Shown here in pieces: positions 5,333 through 23,757 of a stretch of 64,000 nt of DNA. The stretch is taken from IMG/VR virus record IMGVR_UViG_3300027754_004232, positions 1 to 64,000 of that record. One strand, written 5' to 3'. How positions within the stretch are numbered: position 1 is the first letter of the stretch; every line of letters begins with the position of its first letter. The DNA is from a virus. The notes under the pieces are model-generated. The model was not told the DNA's origin. It was given only the letters and a program-made list of their open reading frames with translations, and did no database searches. The position numbers were made by a program, and so were the translations under genes.

Positions 5333-5940
5333 TGGATTTAGCATTATTGGTTCATGCGTGTGACAAGTATTCTTTTGTTTTTGAAAGATTTTTAAAAGCA
5401 TTTGATATTTTTAATTTAAACATACCATGTTATTTCTCAACAGAATCCACAAATATAAAAAGCAAAAAATTTGAAAACATAAACACAAATGAAAATGTAT
5501 GGTCATTAAGATTAAATCAATCTTTACTTAAAATAAAAGAAAAAAATGTAGTGATTCTTCAAGAAGACTTTATAGTAAATAGTTTTAATGAAAATTTGTT
5601 TTGTGATCTTTATAAGTTTCACAATGATTATGGTTCAGACATTACTAAGACAGGTTCGTTTAAAACCTTTTCGTTGCTAAAAACTTCTGTTGAAAATATG
5701 TACGCACAAAAATATGGTTATTATTTAATGAGTCATCAACCAATAGCTATATTCAATAAAGAGTTTTTAATATCAACGCTAAATGAAAAACAAAATGCCA
5801 GTGAGCACGAAATGTATTGGTCTGAAAGAATAAGGGAAAATAGTATTTTTTGTTTTGGTAAAAATGAATTTGATCATCAAATGTTTAATCCTGTTTTTGG
5901 ATATACACATGTTATAAGCAAGGGTAAGCTAATAGCTTAA
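5332..5940 (+). CDS. putative glycosyltransferase-like protein
   Basis: The protein has 202 residues. It opens with LALLVHACDKYSFVFERFLKAF and then has WSLRLNQSLLKIKEKNVVILQEDF. This resembles a family of phage and capsule glycosyltransferase-like proteins, in which a HACDKY start and an acidic Q-[DE]-D-F motif replace the classic DXD. Assignment rests on this recall of pattern only. It starts at TAATG overlapping the previous stop and runs tail-to-tail into the adenosyltransferase gene on the other strand, overlapping it by four bases. Confidence 0.5.
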   Translation: MDLALLVHACDKYSFVFERFLKAFDIFNLNIPCYFSTESTNIKSKKFENINTNENVWSLRLNQSLLKIKEKNVVILQEDFIVNSFNENLFCDLYKFHNDYGSDITKTGSFKTFSLLKTSVENMYAQKYGYYLMSHQPIAIFNKEFLISTLNEKQNASEHEMYWSERIRENSIFCFGKNEFDHQMFNPVFGYTHVISKGKLIA

Positions 5941-6449
5941 CCATGCCATATCTTTTCTTCTGGACCAAGCAATCTTGCTAAAGTAAATAGGAAATCGCTA
6001 AGTCTATTTATAAACACAACAATGTTTTTAAAATCTTGATGTGCTTCCATAAGTCTGACTAAATCAATTTCAACTCTTCTGCATACTGCTCTAGCCAAAT
6101 GAATTTCACAATGATTGAATGGGATTATAAAATTCTTTAATGGCTTTAAACTTTTAGTCATCAAATCAATAATGTCTTCTGTTTTTTTAATGTGTTCTTC
6201 TTTTATCCTTTCTTTTCCAGTAGCCACTTCTGCACCAACTTCAAAAAGAAGATTTTGTATTTCTATTATAAATTCGTACACTTCATGGACTTTTAATTCT
6301 AAAATATACTTTTGATTAACAAATCCAATCCAAGCATTAAGCTCATCAATACTACCAAGAAGTTGTATATTAGGATTAGTTTTAGGTACTCTACCTATTT
6401 TTGGCAAAAGTGTAGTTCCGTCATCACCAGTTTTTGTATATATTTTCAT
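5937..6449 (-). CDS. pduO: corrinoid adenosyltransferase, PduO type
   Basis: This 170-residue enzyme should transfer the 5'-deoxyadenosyl group of ATP to cob(I)alamin, making adenosylcobalamin. Family motifs are present in order. TKTGDDGTT (residues 5-13) is the ATP loop. GSIDELNAWIG follows, then HLARAVCRRVE with the conserved Arg pair, then NRLSDFLFTLAR. The segment normally read as LPGGS is IPFNHC here. The ATG at 6449 is chosen because family proteins begin at MKIYTKTGD; a longer upstream frame would add a hydrophobic stretch that the family lacks. The likely purpose is to supply the cofactor of the class II ribonucleotide reductase at 21466-23757. Confidence 0.88.
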   Translation of the reverse strand: MKIYTKTGDDGTTLLPKIGRVPKTNPNIQLLGSIDELNAWIGFVNQKYILELKVHEVYEFIIEIQNLLFEVGAEVATGKERIKEEHIKKTEDIIDLMTKSLKPLKNFIIPFNHCEIHLARAVCRRVEIDLVRLMEAHQDFKNIVVFINRLSDFLFTLARLLGPEEKIWHG

Positions 6450-7602: not shown

Positions 7603-8157
7603 TCATAATCCATTACCACCATTGTTAAAACCGCCACCAAATTGACCAAATAAACCACCAATATTACCACCGCCAAATTGACCACCAATATTACCGCCAC
7701 CAAACTGTCCAAATCCACCACCGCTTTGAAATGCCGAAACACCAACACCAGCCATAATTCCCTGCATTGCCATAGAATAAAAAGGATTGTTCATACCAAT
7801 TGCTTGAACTCCACCGCCCCCTTGACCAAATCCACCTCCACCTTGTTGAAATTGTGTAGCACTTGGCAATTGATAAAGGAATGAAAGTTGAGATCCAAGT
7901 GTGTTGTTTTGAGTATATTGCGTAGTTCCTTGAATCCCACCAGAATTAGCATTGAGTCCACCAATACCGCCACCACCAATTCCATTTATATTACTAGATG
8001 TATTAAAATTAATGTTTTGATTTGCTATTTGAGACTGTGCTGTATTATTTAAAGCAGGAGGAAATGATGGTCTTGGAGGTAAAATATTTCTATATTTTTG
8101 AGCTTGAGAAGTAGAAGCTATTATAAAAAACAAAAAAGTTACAATTATTTTTTTCAT
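7603..8157 (-). CDS. exported glycine-rich repeat protein
   Basis: This 184-residue protein has a clear signal peptide: a Lys-Lys start, a hydrophobic core, and a likely cleavage after TSQA near residue 19. The mature part is Gly/Asn/Gln-rich and of low complexity. Short repeats such as QFGGGNIGG recur near the C-terminus. It lacks the lipobox cysteine of lipoproteins. An exported low-complexity protein is unusual for a phage. It might act at the host envelope or be captured host DNA. It starts 7 bases after the reading-frame extension of the HAD gene. Confidence 0.6.
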   Translation of the reverse strand: MKKIIVTFLFFIIASTSQAQKYRNILPPRPSFPPALNNTAQSQIANQNINFNTSSNINGIGGGGIGGLNANSGGIQGTTQYTQNNTLGSQLSFLYQLPSATQFQQGGGGFGQGGGGVQAIGMNNPFYSMAMQGIMAGVGVSAFQSGGGFGQFGGGNIGGQFGGGNIGGLFGQFGGGFNNGGNGL

Positions 8158-8726: not shown

Positions 8727-9008
8727 ATGATCAAAACATATCATGTAAAAATAACAATTCTTAAAAATAAAAATAAATATAAAGCTAAAATAACAAAAGA
8801 TGGGTACATATCAATAATTCTTTGTGCATCATCTGATAAGAAAGCAATTGAACTATTAGAAAAAGTTGTTTGTATAGGTGATAAAAGAAAGATTAAAAAT
8901 AGCAAAAAAGTTAAGGATTTCGTATTGCAAAATAGCAACCATAGTTATATGTTTGCATTGCGTATTGAGAATGTAGACAGCTATATACAAGATTGTGATC
9001 ATAAGTAA
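8727..9008 (+). CDS. hypothetical protein (93 aa)
   Basis: A Lys-rich small protein, unrecognised. The ATG at 8727 gives a clean beginning, MIKTYHVKITILKNKN. An ATG at 8682 would add 15 residues, and neither start has a convincing ribosome site. It lies directly before the structured non-coding stretch at 9009-9300. Confidence 0.4.
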   Translation: MIKTYHVKITILKNKNKYKAKITKDGYISIILCASSDKKAIELLEKVVCIGDKRKIKNSKKVKDFVLQNSNHSYMFALRIENVDSYIQDCDHK

Positions 9009-9300
9009 CTGCGTTATCAAATTCAATAACGGTTCTTTCGCAGTTCTTTCCCCGAAGCGATCATAACACCAGGGTATGTACCCAAAGACTGCCATAGAGT
9101 AGCCAAACTCTTAACAGGTGGCACGAAAAGTTTAATTAAGAATCAACACTAGGAATGGAGTGACCCCTTCTCCACCTAGACCTGATAGAGCAAAGCACAA
9201 AATTCTTAATTAATGTCTTGTTTGGTAGAGTGTATAGCACACCGAAGGTAAACAAAGAACTCTGATGCTATGCTATCAGGGTAAAGAAGGGGTATTTGTA
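9009..9300 (+). ncRNA. candidate structured RNA with about six hairpins
   Basis: No gene fits here, and the G+C content looks higher than in the flanks. Nested, mostly perfect inverted repeats fill the stretch. 9008-9013 pairs with 9039-9044, with 9013-9017/9026-9030 inside it. 9072-9075 pairs with 9080-9083. 9090-9094 pairs with 9119-9123, enclosing 9096-9100/9107-9111. A perfect 12-base stem, 9132-9143/9202-9213, encloses a second arm made of 9149-9153/9175-9179 and 9156-9160/9170-9174, separated by an AA bulge. 9262-9266 pairs with 9275-9279. The strand is assigned only because both flanking genes are on plus. It could be a stand-alone phage RNA or a leader of the cupin gene. No known family was recognised: no tRNA, tmRNA, RNase P, hammerhead or cobalamin-riboswitch signature was seen. 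Confidence 0.6.
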
Positions 9301-9654
9301 ATGAAGTTTAAAGCAGACATAACACTTAAAAAATGGGGCAGTGAGGAAACAGTAGTAAACGAATCTTTTAGAGAGACATGTTTGAAAATATTAAAGATGG
9401 ATATTTTTAAACAAACAAGCTGGCACTACCATGCCGAAAAAGAGTCTTATTTTTATATATTGTCTGGAGAGGTGTCAATACACATATCTGACAACGATGA
9501 CTTAAATTTGGCACATATAGAGCTTTTAAAACAAGGTGATTGTATTTTTGTGGGAGCAAACCAAAGACATATGATAACATCAATGAAACAAAGCGTATTA
9601 CTCGAATCATCAAGCTTTGATGATCAATTTGACAAAACTATAGTTCCTCACTAG
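9301..9654 (+). CDS. cupin-domain protein
   Basis: This 117-residue single-domain cupin has motif 1 as HYHAEKESYFYILSGE (His42, His44, Glu48, Gly56) and motif 2 as GDCIFVGANQRHMI (His90). These give the usual 3-His/Glu metal site. Mannose-6-phosphate-isomerase-like cupins of this size act on sugars or sense small molecules. An ATG/TTG further upstream lies inside the RNA hairpins, so the ATG at 9301 with AAGGGG 10-15 bases upstream is preferred. Its end overlaps the minus-strand gene that follows. Confidence 0.75.
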   Translation: MKFKADITLKKWGSEETVVNESFRETCLKILKMDIFKQTSWHYHAEKESYFYILSGEVSIHISDNDDLNLAHIELLKQGDCIFVGANQRHMITSMKQSVLLESSSFDDQFDKTIVPH

Positions 9655-9916
9655 CTATGTCACAAAATATTTGAACTACGCTCTTTTCTATAAAGCCAAA
9701 TGAGTTTAAGTGACCAACATCTTTTCCAACTATTAGAGTTATTTCCATAAATTCAGATTCAGATATATACCCAGTTGAATAAGCTTTTCTTATTATTTCT
9801 TTAAATAAAATAAATTCTTCTTTGGTAAAATTTATGGTGTTTAAATTGAGAAAATCAATCTTGCCCTTAAAATAAGCCTTGAGTGTTTGTTGACTTTCCT
9901 TTATTCTGTTTTTCAT
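9638..9916 (-). CDS. hypothetical protein (92 aa)
   Basis: A helical 92-residue protein of unknown family, read from an ATG preceded by GAGGTC on the minus strand. It overlaps the end of the cupin gene by 17 bases in a tail-to-tail arrangement and faces the acetyltransferase gene across 25 bases. Confidence 0.42.
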   Translation of the reverse strand: MKNRIKESQQTLKAYFKGKIDFLNLNTINFTKEEFILFKEIIRKAYSTGYISESEFMEITLIVGKDVGHLNSFGFIEKSVVQIFCDIASEEL

Positions 9917-9941: not shown

Positions 9942-10433
9942 ATGGCAAAGAAAAATGAACCAGAGATAAATGTAAGGTTATTAATAAAAAGAAATCTCCT
10001 AGATGTAGTAGAAATAGAAAAAGCATCATGCTACACAAACGATCCAGACTTTGGCAAAATTCAAAATGATTCTGCTTGGTCCTCATCTTCTTTTACAAGT
10101 TTTGTTAGAAAAAAGAATACATTTTCTTATGTTATTTATGAGAATTCTAAAATAGTTGGGTTTATTTTGATTGAAAATGGAGTTAATGAAACAACAATAG
10201 AAAAACTAGTTGTTCACCCAATGAAAAGAAGATATGGCTATGGAACCGCCATGATTGATTTTTTAATTCAAAAAAAATTCAAGCCAATAATTTCTGCGTA
10301 CTGTAGGGAAGATGACAATGATAGCATTAAATTCTACAGCAACAAAAAATTCAAATCAAAATTAGAGAAGAAATATTTTCCCAACGATATTGATGCTGTA
10401 AAGTTTACTGTGGAGATTGACCATGAAAAATAA
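9942..10433 (+). CDS. GNAT-family N-acetyltransferase
   Basis: This 163-residue protein has the GNAT core. A central strand, SKIVGFILIENG, is followed by KLVVHPMKRRYGYGTAMIDFLI, whose RRYGYG (residues 96-101) is the acetyl-CoA pyrophosphate loop (R/QxxGxG/A). The next strand ends at IISAYCREDDNDSIKFYSNKKF, as in RimI-like enzymes. It would acetylate an amine; the substrate is unknown. The last bases overlap the next small gene. Confidence 0.75.
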   Translation: MAKKNEPEINVRLLIKRNLLDVVEIEKASCYTNDPDFGKIQNDSAWSSSSFTSFVRKKNTFSYVIYENSKIVGFILIENGVNETTIEKLVVHPMKRRYGYGTAMIDFLIQKKFKPIISAYCREDDNDSIKFYSNKKFKSKLEKKYFPNDIDAVKFTVEIDHEK

Positions 10434-10593
10434 AGTATCTGTAACATGTTTAGGTTGGTGCAATAAAAATTTCATGAGTGTTGATCCAAAAACAAATAGA
10501 TTGTGCAAAAAATGCAGCGAAAAAATAAAAAGCATAACTAATGAATTTGGAAAATGGGGAACAAAAATAACAAGAGAAACAAGAAATGATTAG
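10423..10593 (+). CDS. small zinc-finger protein (56 aa)
   Basis: The ATG at 10423 opens a 56-residue frame with CLGWC, then the spacer NKNFMSVDPKTNRL, then CKKC, a four-cysteine zinc site like those in small phage zinc ribbons. It overlaps the acetyltransferase end by 11 bases and the HNH gene start by 8 bases, matching the packing of real genes here. The C-terminus is basic. Confidence 0.5.
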   Translation: MKNKVSVTCLGWCNKNFMSVDPKTNRLCKKCSEKIKSITNEFGKWGTKITRETRND

Positions 10594-21465: not shown

Positions 21466-23757
21466 ATGTCTATTAAAGAATTGCAAAAATATACGGCTGT
21501 TTCTAAGTACGCTAGATGGATAGAGTCTGAAAAAAGACGAGAAACTTGGGATGAAAGCGTAGATAGAATAAAAGACATGATGATTGAAGTTAATCCTTCC
21601 TTGCATAAAGATATTGAAAAATATTATGGGATGATTAAAAATCAAAAAATATTAGGTTCACAAAGAGCATTGCAGTTTGGCGGTAAGCCAATCCTTAAGC
21701 ATAATGCAAGGATATTCAATTGTTCTGCTAGTTATTGCGATAGATTGAAGTTTTTTCAAGAGTGTTTTTACTTATTGCTGTGTGGGTCTGGAACTGGGTT
21801 TAGTGTACAAAAACATCATGTCGAGTTATTACCAAAGTTTTCATCCACTAGATTAGATCCAGAAACATGTTGCTATCAACATCTTATTCATAGAGTTGAA
21901 GATTCGATTGAAGGTTGGGCAGATGCTCTTGGCGTTCTTCTTTCTTCATACTTTGAAACCCCAATAAAAGAATTTGAAAAATACAAAGATATTGAAGTTG
22001 GATTTAGTTATGTAGACATAAGAGAAAAGGGTTCTCCTTTGGGTTGTGGTATAGGTAATGCTCCAGGCTATGAACCACTAGAAAAAGCTTTAGAAAACAC
22101 TAGGGCTTTACTAAATAGATGTACTGCAAATGGGCAGACACAATTACGAACAATAGATGCATTTGATATAGTTATGTACGCTGCTGATGCTGTTATCTCT
22201 GGCGGTGTTCGTAGGTCTGCAACCATAGCTCTATTCTCTGCTGATGATGAATTGATGATTAATGCAAAAACTGGCGATTGGTACTTTACTAATCCACAAA
22301 GGGCTAGAGCAAACATCTCTGCATTACTCCACAGGAAAGATACCTCCAAAGAAGTATTTGAAAATCTCTTTAAGGCAACAAAAGAGTTTGGCGAACCCGG
22401 ATTCTTCTTTGCTGATTATTATGATGTCTTATGCAATCCATGTTGTGAGATTTCATGGATAACTAGGCACTTTTATAAAAAGGGTAGTCCAGAACTGGCC
22501 GAAGCTTTGTCATTATATGAAGGACCAATAACGACAAAAGAGTCCTGCAAAGACGATATGCCAGAAGACGAAGTTGGTCTTTCTGGTTGGGGATTTTGCA
22601 ATTTATCAACCATTAATGGAAAAACAATAACATCAGAAGAAGACTTCTATGAAAGATGTGCTGCTGCTGCCTTTATTGGCACATTGCAAGCATCTTTTAC
22701 CAATTTCCCATACTTGGGTCATGTTACAGAACTTATCGCTCGTAAAGAGGCATTATTAGGCGTTTCAATTAATGGTATGCAGCATCACCCAAAAATACTA
22801 TTAAATCCAGAAATTCAGCAGAAAGGTGCTGAAATAGTGAAGAATACAAATAAAAAGTATGCATCTGTTTTAAACATAAACCCTGCTGCTAGAACAACTT
22901 GTGTCAAACCAGAAGGCAATTCTGCTGCTCTATTAGGTTCGACATCAGGTATTCATCCAGATCATAGTGGTAGGTACTTCCGTATTGTCCAAGCTAATCA
23001 GCTTGAATCTCCTTATCAGTATTTTAAAAGCATTAATCCTCAAGCTTGTGAAGAGTCTGTATGGTCATCAAATAAAACAGATGACTGCATAAGGTTTTGT
23101 GTGCAAACCCAAAAGGGAACAGTGCTTAAGGAAGAAATAGATGCTATATCTATGTTAGATAATGTTGTATCTACCTATAAGAATTGGGTAGTGTCTGGTA
23201 AAAATCCAGAGCTTTGCATTAGAAAAGAACTAAATCATAATGTATCTAATACAATACATGTTCAAGATAATGAATGGGATAAAGTAAAAGACTACATTTA
23301 TGATCATCGTGCAGATCTTGCTGGAATATCACTTATAGCTGCTACTGGAGATAAAGATTATAATCAAGCTCCATTCACAGCAGTTTATTCAATTGAAGAA
23401 CAAATAAAAAATTGGGGTTTTGAAGCTACATCTACTGCTTATGAAATTTATCCAAAATTTTCTGAGTATAACTTTAACTCTTTATGGGATGCGTGTTCTT
23501 GTGTTCTTGGTTATTTTGAACCAAAAGACGAAAAACAAGAAGAGTGGAAAAAATTAATTAAAACATATTCTGATCAGTGTTTTAGTTCCAATACAAAGTA
23601 TGCCACTTATGCACTTAAAGATGCTTACAATTTAGACTTATGGAATAAACTTATAGATAGTTATTCAGAAGTAAATTATTTAAATGTGTTGGAAGAAAAA
23701 TCTACAATAAATATACAAGGCGAACTAGCTTGTGCTGGCGGTGCGTGTTTAGTATGA
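21466..23757 (+). CDS. nrdJ: class II (adenosylcobalamin-dependent) ribonucleoside-triphosphate reductase
   Basis: This 763-residue monomeric-type enzyme is close to the usual length of about 740. It starts with SKYARWIESEKRRETWDE, a class II marker. Substrate and radical residues are visible: the first redox Cys in NCSASYC (near residue 87), NPCCEI with the radical Cys and Glu (near 325), and the second redox Cys in GFCNLSTIN. PEGNSAALLGSTSGIHP is the phosphate-binding block. The C-terminal redox pair is CAGGAC. It turns NTPs into dNTPs without oxygen or an iron cofactor but needs adenosylcobalamin, matching the PduO-type enzyme at 5937-6449. Confidence 0.93.
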   Translation: MSIKELQKYTAVSKYARWIESEKRRETWDESVDRIKDMMIEVNPSLHKDIEKYYGMIKNQKILGSQRALQFGGKPILKHNARIFNCSASYCDRLKFFQECFYLLLCGSGTGFSVQKHHVELLPKFSSTRLDPETCCYQHLIHRVEDSIEGWADALGVLLSSYFETPIKEFEKYKDIEVGFSYVDIREKGSPLGCGIGNAPGYEPLEKALENTRALLNRCTANGQTQLRTIDAFDIVMYAADAVISGGVRRSATIALFSADDELMINAKTGDWYFTNPQRARANISALLHRKDTSKEVFENLFKATKEFGEPGFFFADYYDVLCNPCCEISWITRHFYKKGSPELAEALSLYEGPITTKESCKDDMPEDEVGLSGWGFCNLSTINGKTITSEEDFYERCAAAAFIGTLQASFTNFPYLGHVTELIARKEALLGVSINGMQHHPKILLNPEIQQKGAEIVKNTNKKYASVLNINPAARTTCVKPEGNSAALLGSTSGIHPDHSGRYFRIVQANQLESPYQYFKSINPQACEESVWSSNKTDDCIRFCVQTQKGTVLKEEIDAISMLDNVVSTYKNWVVSGKNPELCIRKELNHNVSNTIHVQDNEWDKVKDYIYDHRADLAGISLIAATGDKDYNQAPFTAVYSIEEQIKNWGFEATSTAYEIYPKFSEYNFNSLWDACSCVLGYFEPKDEKQEEWKKLIKTYSDQCFSSNTKYATYALKDAYNLDLWNKLIDSYSEVNYLNVLEEKSTINIQGELACAGGACLV

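Follow-up and report, generated by a model that had tools for sequence, protein, structure and literature searches.

A conserved folded RNA directly behind a small basic protein gene in a group of uncultured phages

Judged by comparison of its homologues, the stretch of about 290 bases that follows the small gene orfX in this virus encodes a real, conserved folded RNA, with covariation that goes beyond phylogeny. The window analyzed here is the whole stretch of DNA given above, namely positions 1-64000 of IMGVR_UViG_3300027754_004232, an IMG/VR record totalling 92,193 bases, and the boundaries of the element (Table 1) were set by conservation and pairing. A sequence-only reading of the window had proposed an undescribed structured RNA here, either as a leader of the cupin gene or as a stand-alone phage RNA. 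This main proposal was borne out by the covariation of the 12-base stem at 8 of its 12 pairs and by the absence of an Rfam match, and of the two proposed roles the stand-alone phage RNA fits better on the compared loci. We believe that the element is a new RNA class among structured phage ncRNAs, with no Rfam family and no description found in the open-access literature searched.

Table 1. Window coordinates of the RNA element, its neighboring genes and its helices
Feature	Position	Strand	Remarks
Structured RNA element	9003..9293	+	Conservation, pairing, covariation
orfX	8727..9008	+	Gene for a basic 93-aa protein, immediately before the RNA; without Pfam or PHROG family
Cupin-domain gene	9301..9654	+	Pfam Cupin_2; best PHROG 'cysteine dioxygenase'
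Orphan gene, 92 aa, convergent	9638..9916	-	Directly behind the RNA in 13/14 cupin-less loci
P1	9003-9005/9046-9048 + 9007-9013/9039-9045	+	orfX stop codon 9006-9008 inside; one pair changed on both sides (L022)
P2 hairpin	9072..9083	+	GGGT/ACCC; 4/4 pairs changed on both sides
P3	9085-9089/9215-9219	+	Closes the P4-P6 domain; AAGAC/GTCTT to AGGAT/GTCCT, one pair changed on both sides
P4	9090-9094/9119-9123 + 9096-9100/9107-9111	+	Paired letters invariant
P5	9132-9143/9202-9213	+	12-base stem; 8/12 pairs changed on both sides
P6	9149-9153/9175-9179 + 9156-9160/9170-9174	+	4/10 pairs changed on both sides
PKa	9181-9188 (CCTGATAG) / 9273-9280 (CTATCAGG)	+	One pair changed on both sides (L061)
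PKb	9163-9169 (ACCCCTT, P6 loop) / 9287-9293 (AAGGGGT, 3' end)	+	One pair changed on both sides
PKb 3' strand doubling as Shine-Dalgarno	9287..9303	+	AAGGGG, 8 bases before ATG at 9301, in cupin-bearing rows

The region carries no gene, as had been claimed. No frame was open across the element in any of the 16 rows compared, and the longest stop-free run (73 codons) was found in L048 only. The region had also been described as richer in G+C than its flanks; the G+C of the gap 9009-9264 was 0.414, the highest of the 13 gene-free gaps longer than 150 bases, and those of the other 12 gaps and of the whole window were 0.248 to 0.370 and 0.316, respectively. The stems described in that reading, P5 as a perfect 12-base stem, P6 as an inner arm with an AA bulge and P4 as a nested stem of five plus five pairs, could be read directly in the letters, and P1, P2, P3 and the long-range pairings PKa and PKb were absent from it. 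The folding energy of the element was not unusual (-71.3 kcal/mol, z -1.52), and 13 of 200 shuffles folded equally well. Because stems and folding energy alone would not prove an RNA, comparison was needed to settle the question.

Homologues were searched with the cupin protein, with RNA patterns and with the upstream protein orfX. The element was found in 31 further IMG/VR contigs, whole in 29 and cut by the contig end in 2 (L024/L071 and L057), and its 12-base stem was kept with compensating changes, which was the check that had been suggested for it. The 31 contigs represent 16 distinct stretches with flanks and 14 distinct elements. The RNA of L002, L003 and L004 is identical to that of the window, and these three may belong to one virus population with it. 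Every one of the 31 contigs found via orfX carried the RNA directly behind it, and none was found without the RNA. Such constant adjacency may be plain synteny, since the downstream gene order is conserved as well. A covariance model of the core gave one strong copy per record in 9/9 records scanned, and the four extra matches in these records (E 5.5 to 9.3) were at chance level. The phage collection gave four partial matches only (E 0.3), the L061 and L053 versions of the element gave none there at E 0.01, and the plasmid collection gave no match. The core model, at E 0.01 and with stricter filters, found nothing in 395 genomes of one bacterial phylum, which shows little because the set included no positive-control genome. 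The single match among genome contigs (L046) was put down to chance; it lay inside a bacterial gene read as ribonucleotide reductase. The pattern matches in L077 and L087, outside the clade, were likewise judged to be chance. A 16-base pattern matched 33 stretches, 14 of which were the element; the other 19 had no whole-element blastn match, and two of them had a 20-base match. So far, the RNA is known only from one group of uncultured phages.

Covariation was evaluated on a plain MAFFT alignment of 16 rows (A3), with 69 pairs drawn on the window, including one helix that was later rejected. Standard pairs were formed in 94.0% of the cells, compared with 41.1-49.1% when the partners were slid by 1 to 3 columns. 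Both sides had changed in 21 of the 69 pairs (20/62 without the rejected helix), compared with 0-6 pairs in the slid versions. By helix, the numbers of such pairs in P2, P5 and P6 were 4/4, 8/12 and 4/10, respectively, with one each in P1, P3, PKa, PKb and the rejected helix. The count for P5 was the same on the structure-fitted alignment. In P2, the homologues carried GAAC/GTTC, TGGC/GCCA, GGGG/CCCC and GGAT/ATCC. The P6 pair 9156/9174, one of the four, is unpaired in 10 of the 16 rows. The paired letters of P4 never vary, and therefore covariation gives no test of this arm. The measure of further pair types did not exceed that of the shuffles (32 vs 32.6). On the structure-fitted core alignment, which leans towards the structure, 98.1% of the cells paired. 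A 7-base pairing at 9032-9038/9254-9260 was dropped: 80.4% of its cells paired, and each of four pairs was broken in 5 or 6 rows out of 16.

For the tree null, 500 alignments were simulated from the window sequence with no structural constraint, using 14 distinct rows and 62 pairs. In the simulations, the paired cells had a mean of 86.9% and a maximum of 91.7% (observed 96.5%), the pairs changed on both sides had a mean of 5.9 and a maximum of 13 (observed 20), and the cells changed on both sides had a mean of 10.2 and a maximum of 28 (observed 44). None of the 500 simulations reached the observed value on any of the three measures. The lineages behind these figures are few, with 14 distinct elements and an Infernal effective number of 1.2 for the core.

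The sequence of the RNA was also conserved. Between the window and L006, the RNA was 96.0% identical (4% divergence) and the adjacent orfX had a dS of 0.49. The conservation boundary was sharp and lay near the first bases of the element, within the last codons of orfX. The AAG at the start of the element is paired in P1 and is retained by the L052 and L006 groups, in which the stop codon of orfX lies upstream of it. Between the window and L061, 94 of 124 paired columns and 105 of 165 unpaired columns were identical, so that at this long range the paired columns were the most conserved and the unpaired columns were not specially conserved.

As drawn from these pairings, the fold is a P3-closed domain containing P4, P5 and P6, with the 5' hairpins P1 and P2 and a 3' tail that is complementary to the middle of the element at PKa and PKb; one strand of PKb lies in the P6 loop, 9161-9169. 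RNAalifold, which was not given the drawn structure, recovered P1, P2, P4, PKa and PKb. Being unable to draw pseudoknots, it preferred PKa and PKb and omitted P3, P5 and P6 as drawn. Since P5 crosses PKa and PKb and RNAalifold omits these three helices, the pairings may be alternative folds; P5 and PKa/PKb would either form simultaneously, as a pseudoknot, or replace each other. In A3, the 3' strand of PKa was misaligned by one base in the L061 row. In the correct register, 7 of the 8 PKa pairs of L061 formed, with one G-U and one pair changed on both sides. A kissing pair between loop 4 and the tail and a P8 stem had weak support by eye and were excluded.

The gene behind the RNA differs between loci. 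We laid out the loci of 30 of the 31 contigs; the omitted one, the contig of L003, has the cupin gene. The order was orfX, RNA, cupin gene where present, convergent 92-aa gene and acetyltransferase, as far as the locus reaches. The cupin gene was present in 14 loci and absent from 14, and 2 loci ended inside the RNA. In L026/L047, the cupin gene and the 92-aa gene were both missing and the acetyltransferase came next, in L047 on the same strand approximately 95 bases behind the RNA. In the other 13 cupin-less loci, the end of the convergent gene lay close behind the RNA. In 25 of the 30 loci, a 58-aa protein with cysteine pairs (window 10417-10593) was encoded behind the acetyltransferase. The 3' strand of PKb differed accordingly. 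All 10 cupin-bearing rows of A3 had AAGGGG with the matching loop CCCC, and all 6 cupin-less rows (representing 4 distinct elements) had AAGTGG with the matching loop CCAC (the pairing being ACCACTT/AAGTGG). The pattern, which comes from few evolutionary events (the tree was unresolved around L026), fits a PKb pairing that would have been kept while one of its strands became a ribosome binding site.

It could be argued that the RNA is a riboswitch or translational leader, which senses something and hides or frees the Shine-Dalgarno sequence of the cupin gene through PKb. The identity of the PKb 3' strand with that sequence in cupin-bearing rows speaks for this, and so does a local pairing of the PKa 3' strand with the bases just upstream (window 9266-9280 and homologues), which could be the switch. 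This local alternative formed 6/7 pairs in the window (shuffle P 0.075) and 7/7 in L052 (P 0.024), but it formed poorly in L048 (5/7, P 0.44) and at chance level in L061 (P 0.355). A conformational switch through a local hairpin competing with PKa is thus possible, but does not go beyond chance in every row. Moreover, the RNA is present without the cupin gene in 14 of the 28 informative loci, yet PKb is kept there by the matching change, and therefore the RNA is not a leader that requires the cupin gene. The position expected of a riboswitch was not kept either, as a same-strand cupin gene came next in 14/30 loci and 13 of the 14 cupin-less loci had the convergent gene. We consider a riboswitch or leader quite improbable. 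The leader role proposed earlier thus fails as a general role and stands only as an added one in cupin-bearing phages.

The gene upstream, orfX, is constant and under purifying selection (dN/dS 0.13-0.34 in six pairs). In 12 relatives its product had a pI of 9.2-9.8 and a net charge of +7 to +10, and by charge per residue it would come third of the 27 small frames of the window. Searches against PHROGs (window, L061 and L053) and Pfam (the same and L009) gave no family, with best E values of 0.031 and 0.21, the orfX of L026 found nothing in the phage collection at E up to 1, and the AlphaFold model was poor (pLDDT 49.6). That orfX binds RNA is our guess. In L009, orfX is 46-47% identical in protein to that of the window and the RNA is 96% identical in DNA, which argues against a strictly matched orfX-RNA pair. 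The end of orfX is cut short by an insertion of one base in the L006 group. Because of the mismatch in L009 and this insertion, we believe that recombination is likely to have occurred at the 5' border of the RNA in L009 (4406-4684) and in the L006 group (L006 1201-1470).

These observations also bear on whether the element acts in cis, as a 3' UTR element of orfX that remains part of the mRNA and governs how it decays or is translated. Ribosomes terminating in or just before P1 would open P1 and so couple orfX translation to the fold. The RNA follows orfX in every contig, the orfX stop codon is part of P1 in the window and other sequences and precedes the element by 0 to 4 bases in the L052 and L006 groups, a paired 3' end could block exonucleases, and the convergent gene comes next in all but one of the cupin-less loci. 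However, L009 uncouples the types of orfX and RNA, and in our judgement about 290 bases with an invariant P4 arm is much for a stability element. We regard a cis-acting role as rather unlikely, though as the most serious of the rivals.

We infer that the plus strand is transcribed, from the orientation of orfX and of the cupin gene and, weakly, from the G-U pairs. Over all 16 rows there were 15 G-T and 17 A-C cells, and such a crude count of about equal numbers does not settle the strand. Promoters and terminators did not stand out, which speaks against a stand-alone transcript: promoter-like sites numbered 12 in the window stretch vs 9.0 in shuffles and 8 vs 7.2 in L054, and the one terminator-like site of the window stretch lies within the cupin gene on the minus strand, with no such site in L054. 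The near-equal G-T and A-C counts would also suit a conserved structure that acts as DNA, for example as an origin or packaging site, because the pairing rules would shape single-stranded DNA too, and one strong copy per record is what was found. In the ten representatives, however, 9 of the 10 A-C cells belong to four pairs that are doubtful or at helix ends, and the remaining one lies where L061 is misaligned; most of the 12 G-T cells, by contrast, are internal to helices. This is a weak argument for the strand. A role as DNA is very improbable.

The window had no match to Rfam 15 at the gathering score, and at E up to 10 (window, L061 and L060) there were seven matches with E of 0.75 to 6.4, far below the gathering scores. 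The group I intron, the cobalamin riboswitch, manA (RF01745) and wcaG (RF01761) gave no Rfam match. In agreement with the sequence-only reading, which had seen no signature of tRNA, tmRNA or the cobalamin riboswitch, no tRNA, tmRNA or Rfam family was found in the window. As for cobalamin elsewhere in the window, a ribonucleotide reductase is encoded at 21466-23757, where the best phage matches are so annotated; it is probably of the B12-dependent class II. A cobalamin adenosyltransferase is encoded at 5937-6446, and the presence of both genes suggests that the phage itself provides the coenzyme B12 needed to make DNA precursors. Upstream of orfX, window 7603-8157 (minus strand) encodes a protein of 184 aa that begins with a signal-like segment and contains glycine-rich repeats; it had no Pfam match at E 0.001.

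The pseudoknotted core could also be a ribozyme that cleaves or processes itself or another RNA. Two long-range pairings cross P3 and P5. In group I introns P3 and P7 cross, and the order of strands seen here (P3 5', P4, PKa 5', P3 3', PKa 3') resembles that crossing. However, no Rfam ribozyme or intron matched at E up to 10, and 26 bases, including the 3' strand of P5, lie between the PKa 5' and P3 3' strands, so that the PKa 5' strand is inside P5 and not beside P3 as in group I introns. Also unlike an intron, the element lies behind a stop codon and not within a gene: in the 14 loci read, it begins at the orfX stop or shortly after it, with no interruption of a gene. A ribozyme is therefore unlikely.

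The reading that we prefer, at about an even chance, is a stand-alone phage ncRNA that comes from the orfX transcript, acts in trans as an RNP and secondarily gates the cupin gene. The ncRNA would be cut from the orfX transcript or form its 3' end, and would fold into a compact pseudoknotted body. The P4 arm, together with a few stretches of loop that likewise never vary, would bind a protein, perhaps the basic orfX protein, and the RNP would act during infection. In cupin-bearing lineages, the last strand of PKb would be the ribosome binding site of the cupin gene, so that folding would hold back cupin translation where this gene sits directly behind the RNA. A bolder form, which we put forward tentatively and below an even chance, is a new class of pseudoknotted phage RNA that would be an in-trans catalytic RNA or RNP core, whose 3' pseudoknot strand would have become a ribosome binding site in some lineages, preserved by a matching mutation in the loop. 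If this is true, one strand serves both the fold of the RNA and the translation of a newly acquired gene. The phages with and without the cupin gene, which differ accordingly in the PKb strand, are a natural experiment and a clear test case of a structured-RNA strand that doubles as a Shine-Dalgarno sequence.

Several known systems can be compared with this RNA. In type III toxin-antitoxin systems and in the AbiF-associated RCd22, an ncRNA is described beside a protein gene and binds that protein (PMC12373285). Similarly, the present RNA would be an ncRNA next to a protein gene in a mobile element. Unlike those systems, orfX matches no such toxin family and the RNA lies downstream of it. The manA and wcaG motifs are structured RNAs of T4-like cyanophages that carry metabolic genes, with manA in potential 5' UTRs and wcaG seemingly gene-regulatory (PMC2864571). 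In contrast, the present RNA lies behind orfX and keeps this position where no same-strand cupin gene follows. GOLLD, ROOL and OLE (approximately 600 nt) are larger than this RNA, and some of them occur in phages. Studies describe GOLLD, ROOL and OLE as structured RNAs from comparative genomics with unsettled function (PMC12286853). What RNA classes of this complexity do is an unsettled question, for which the present RNA offers a defined clade, a constant neighbor gene and a length short enough for probing or cryo-EM. It is smaller than these classes and has no Rfam match, and it is like them in having been discovered by comparative genomics.
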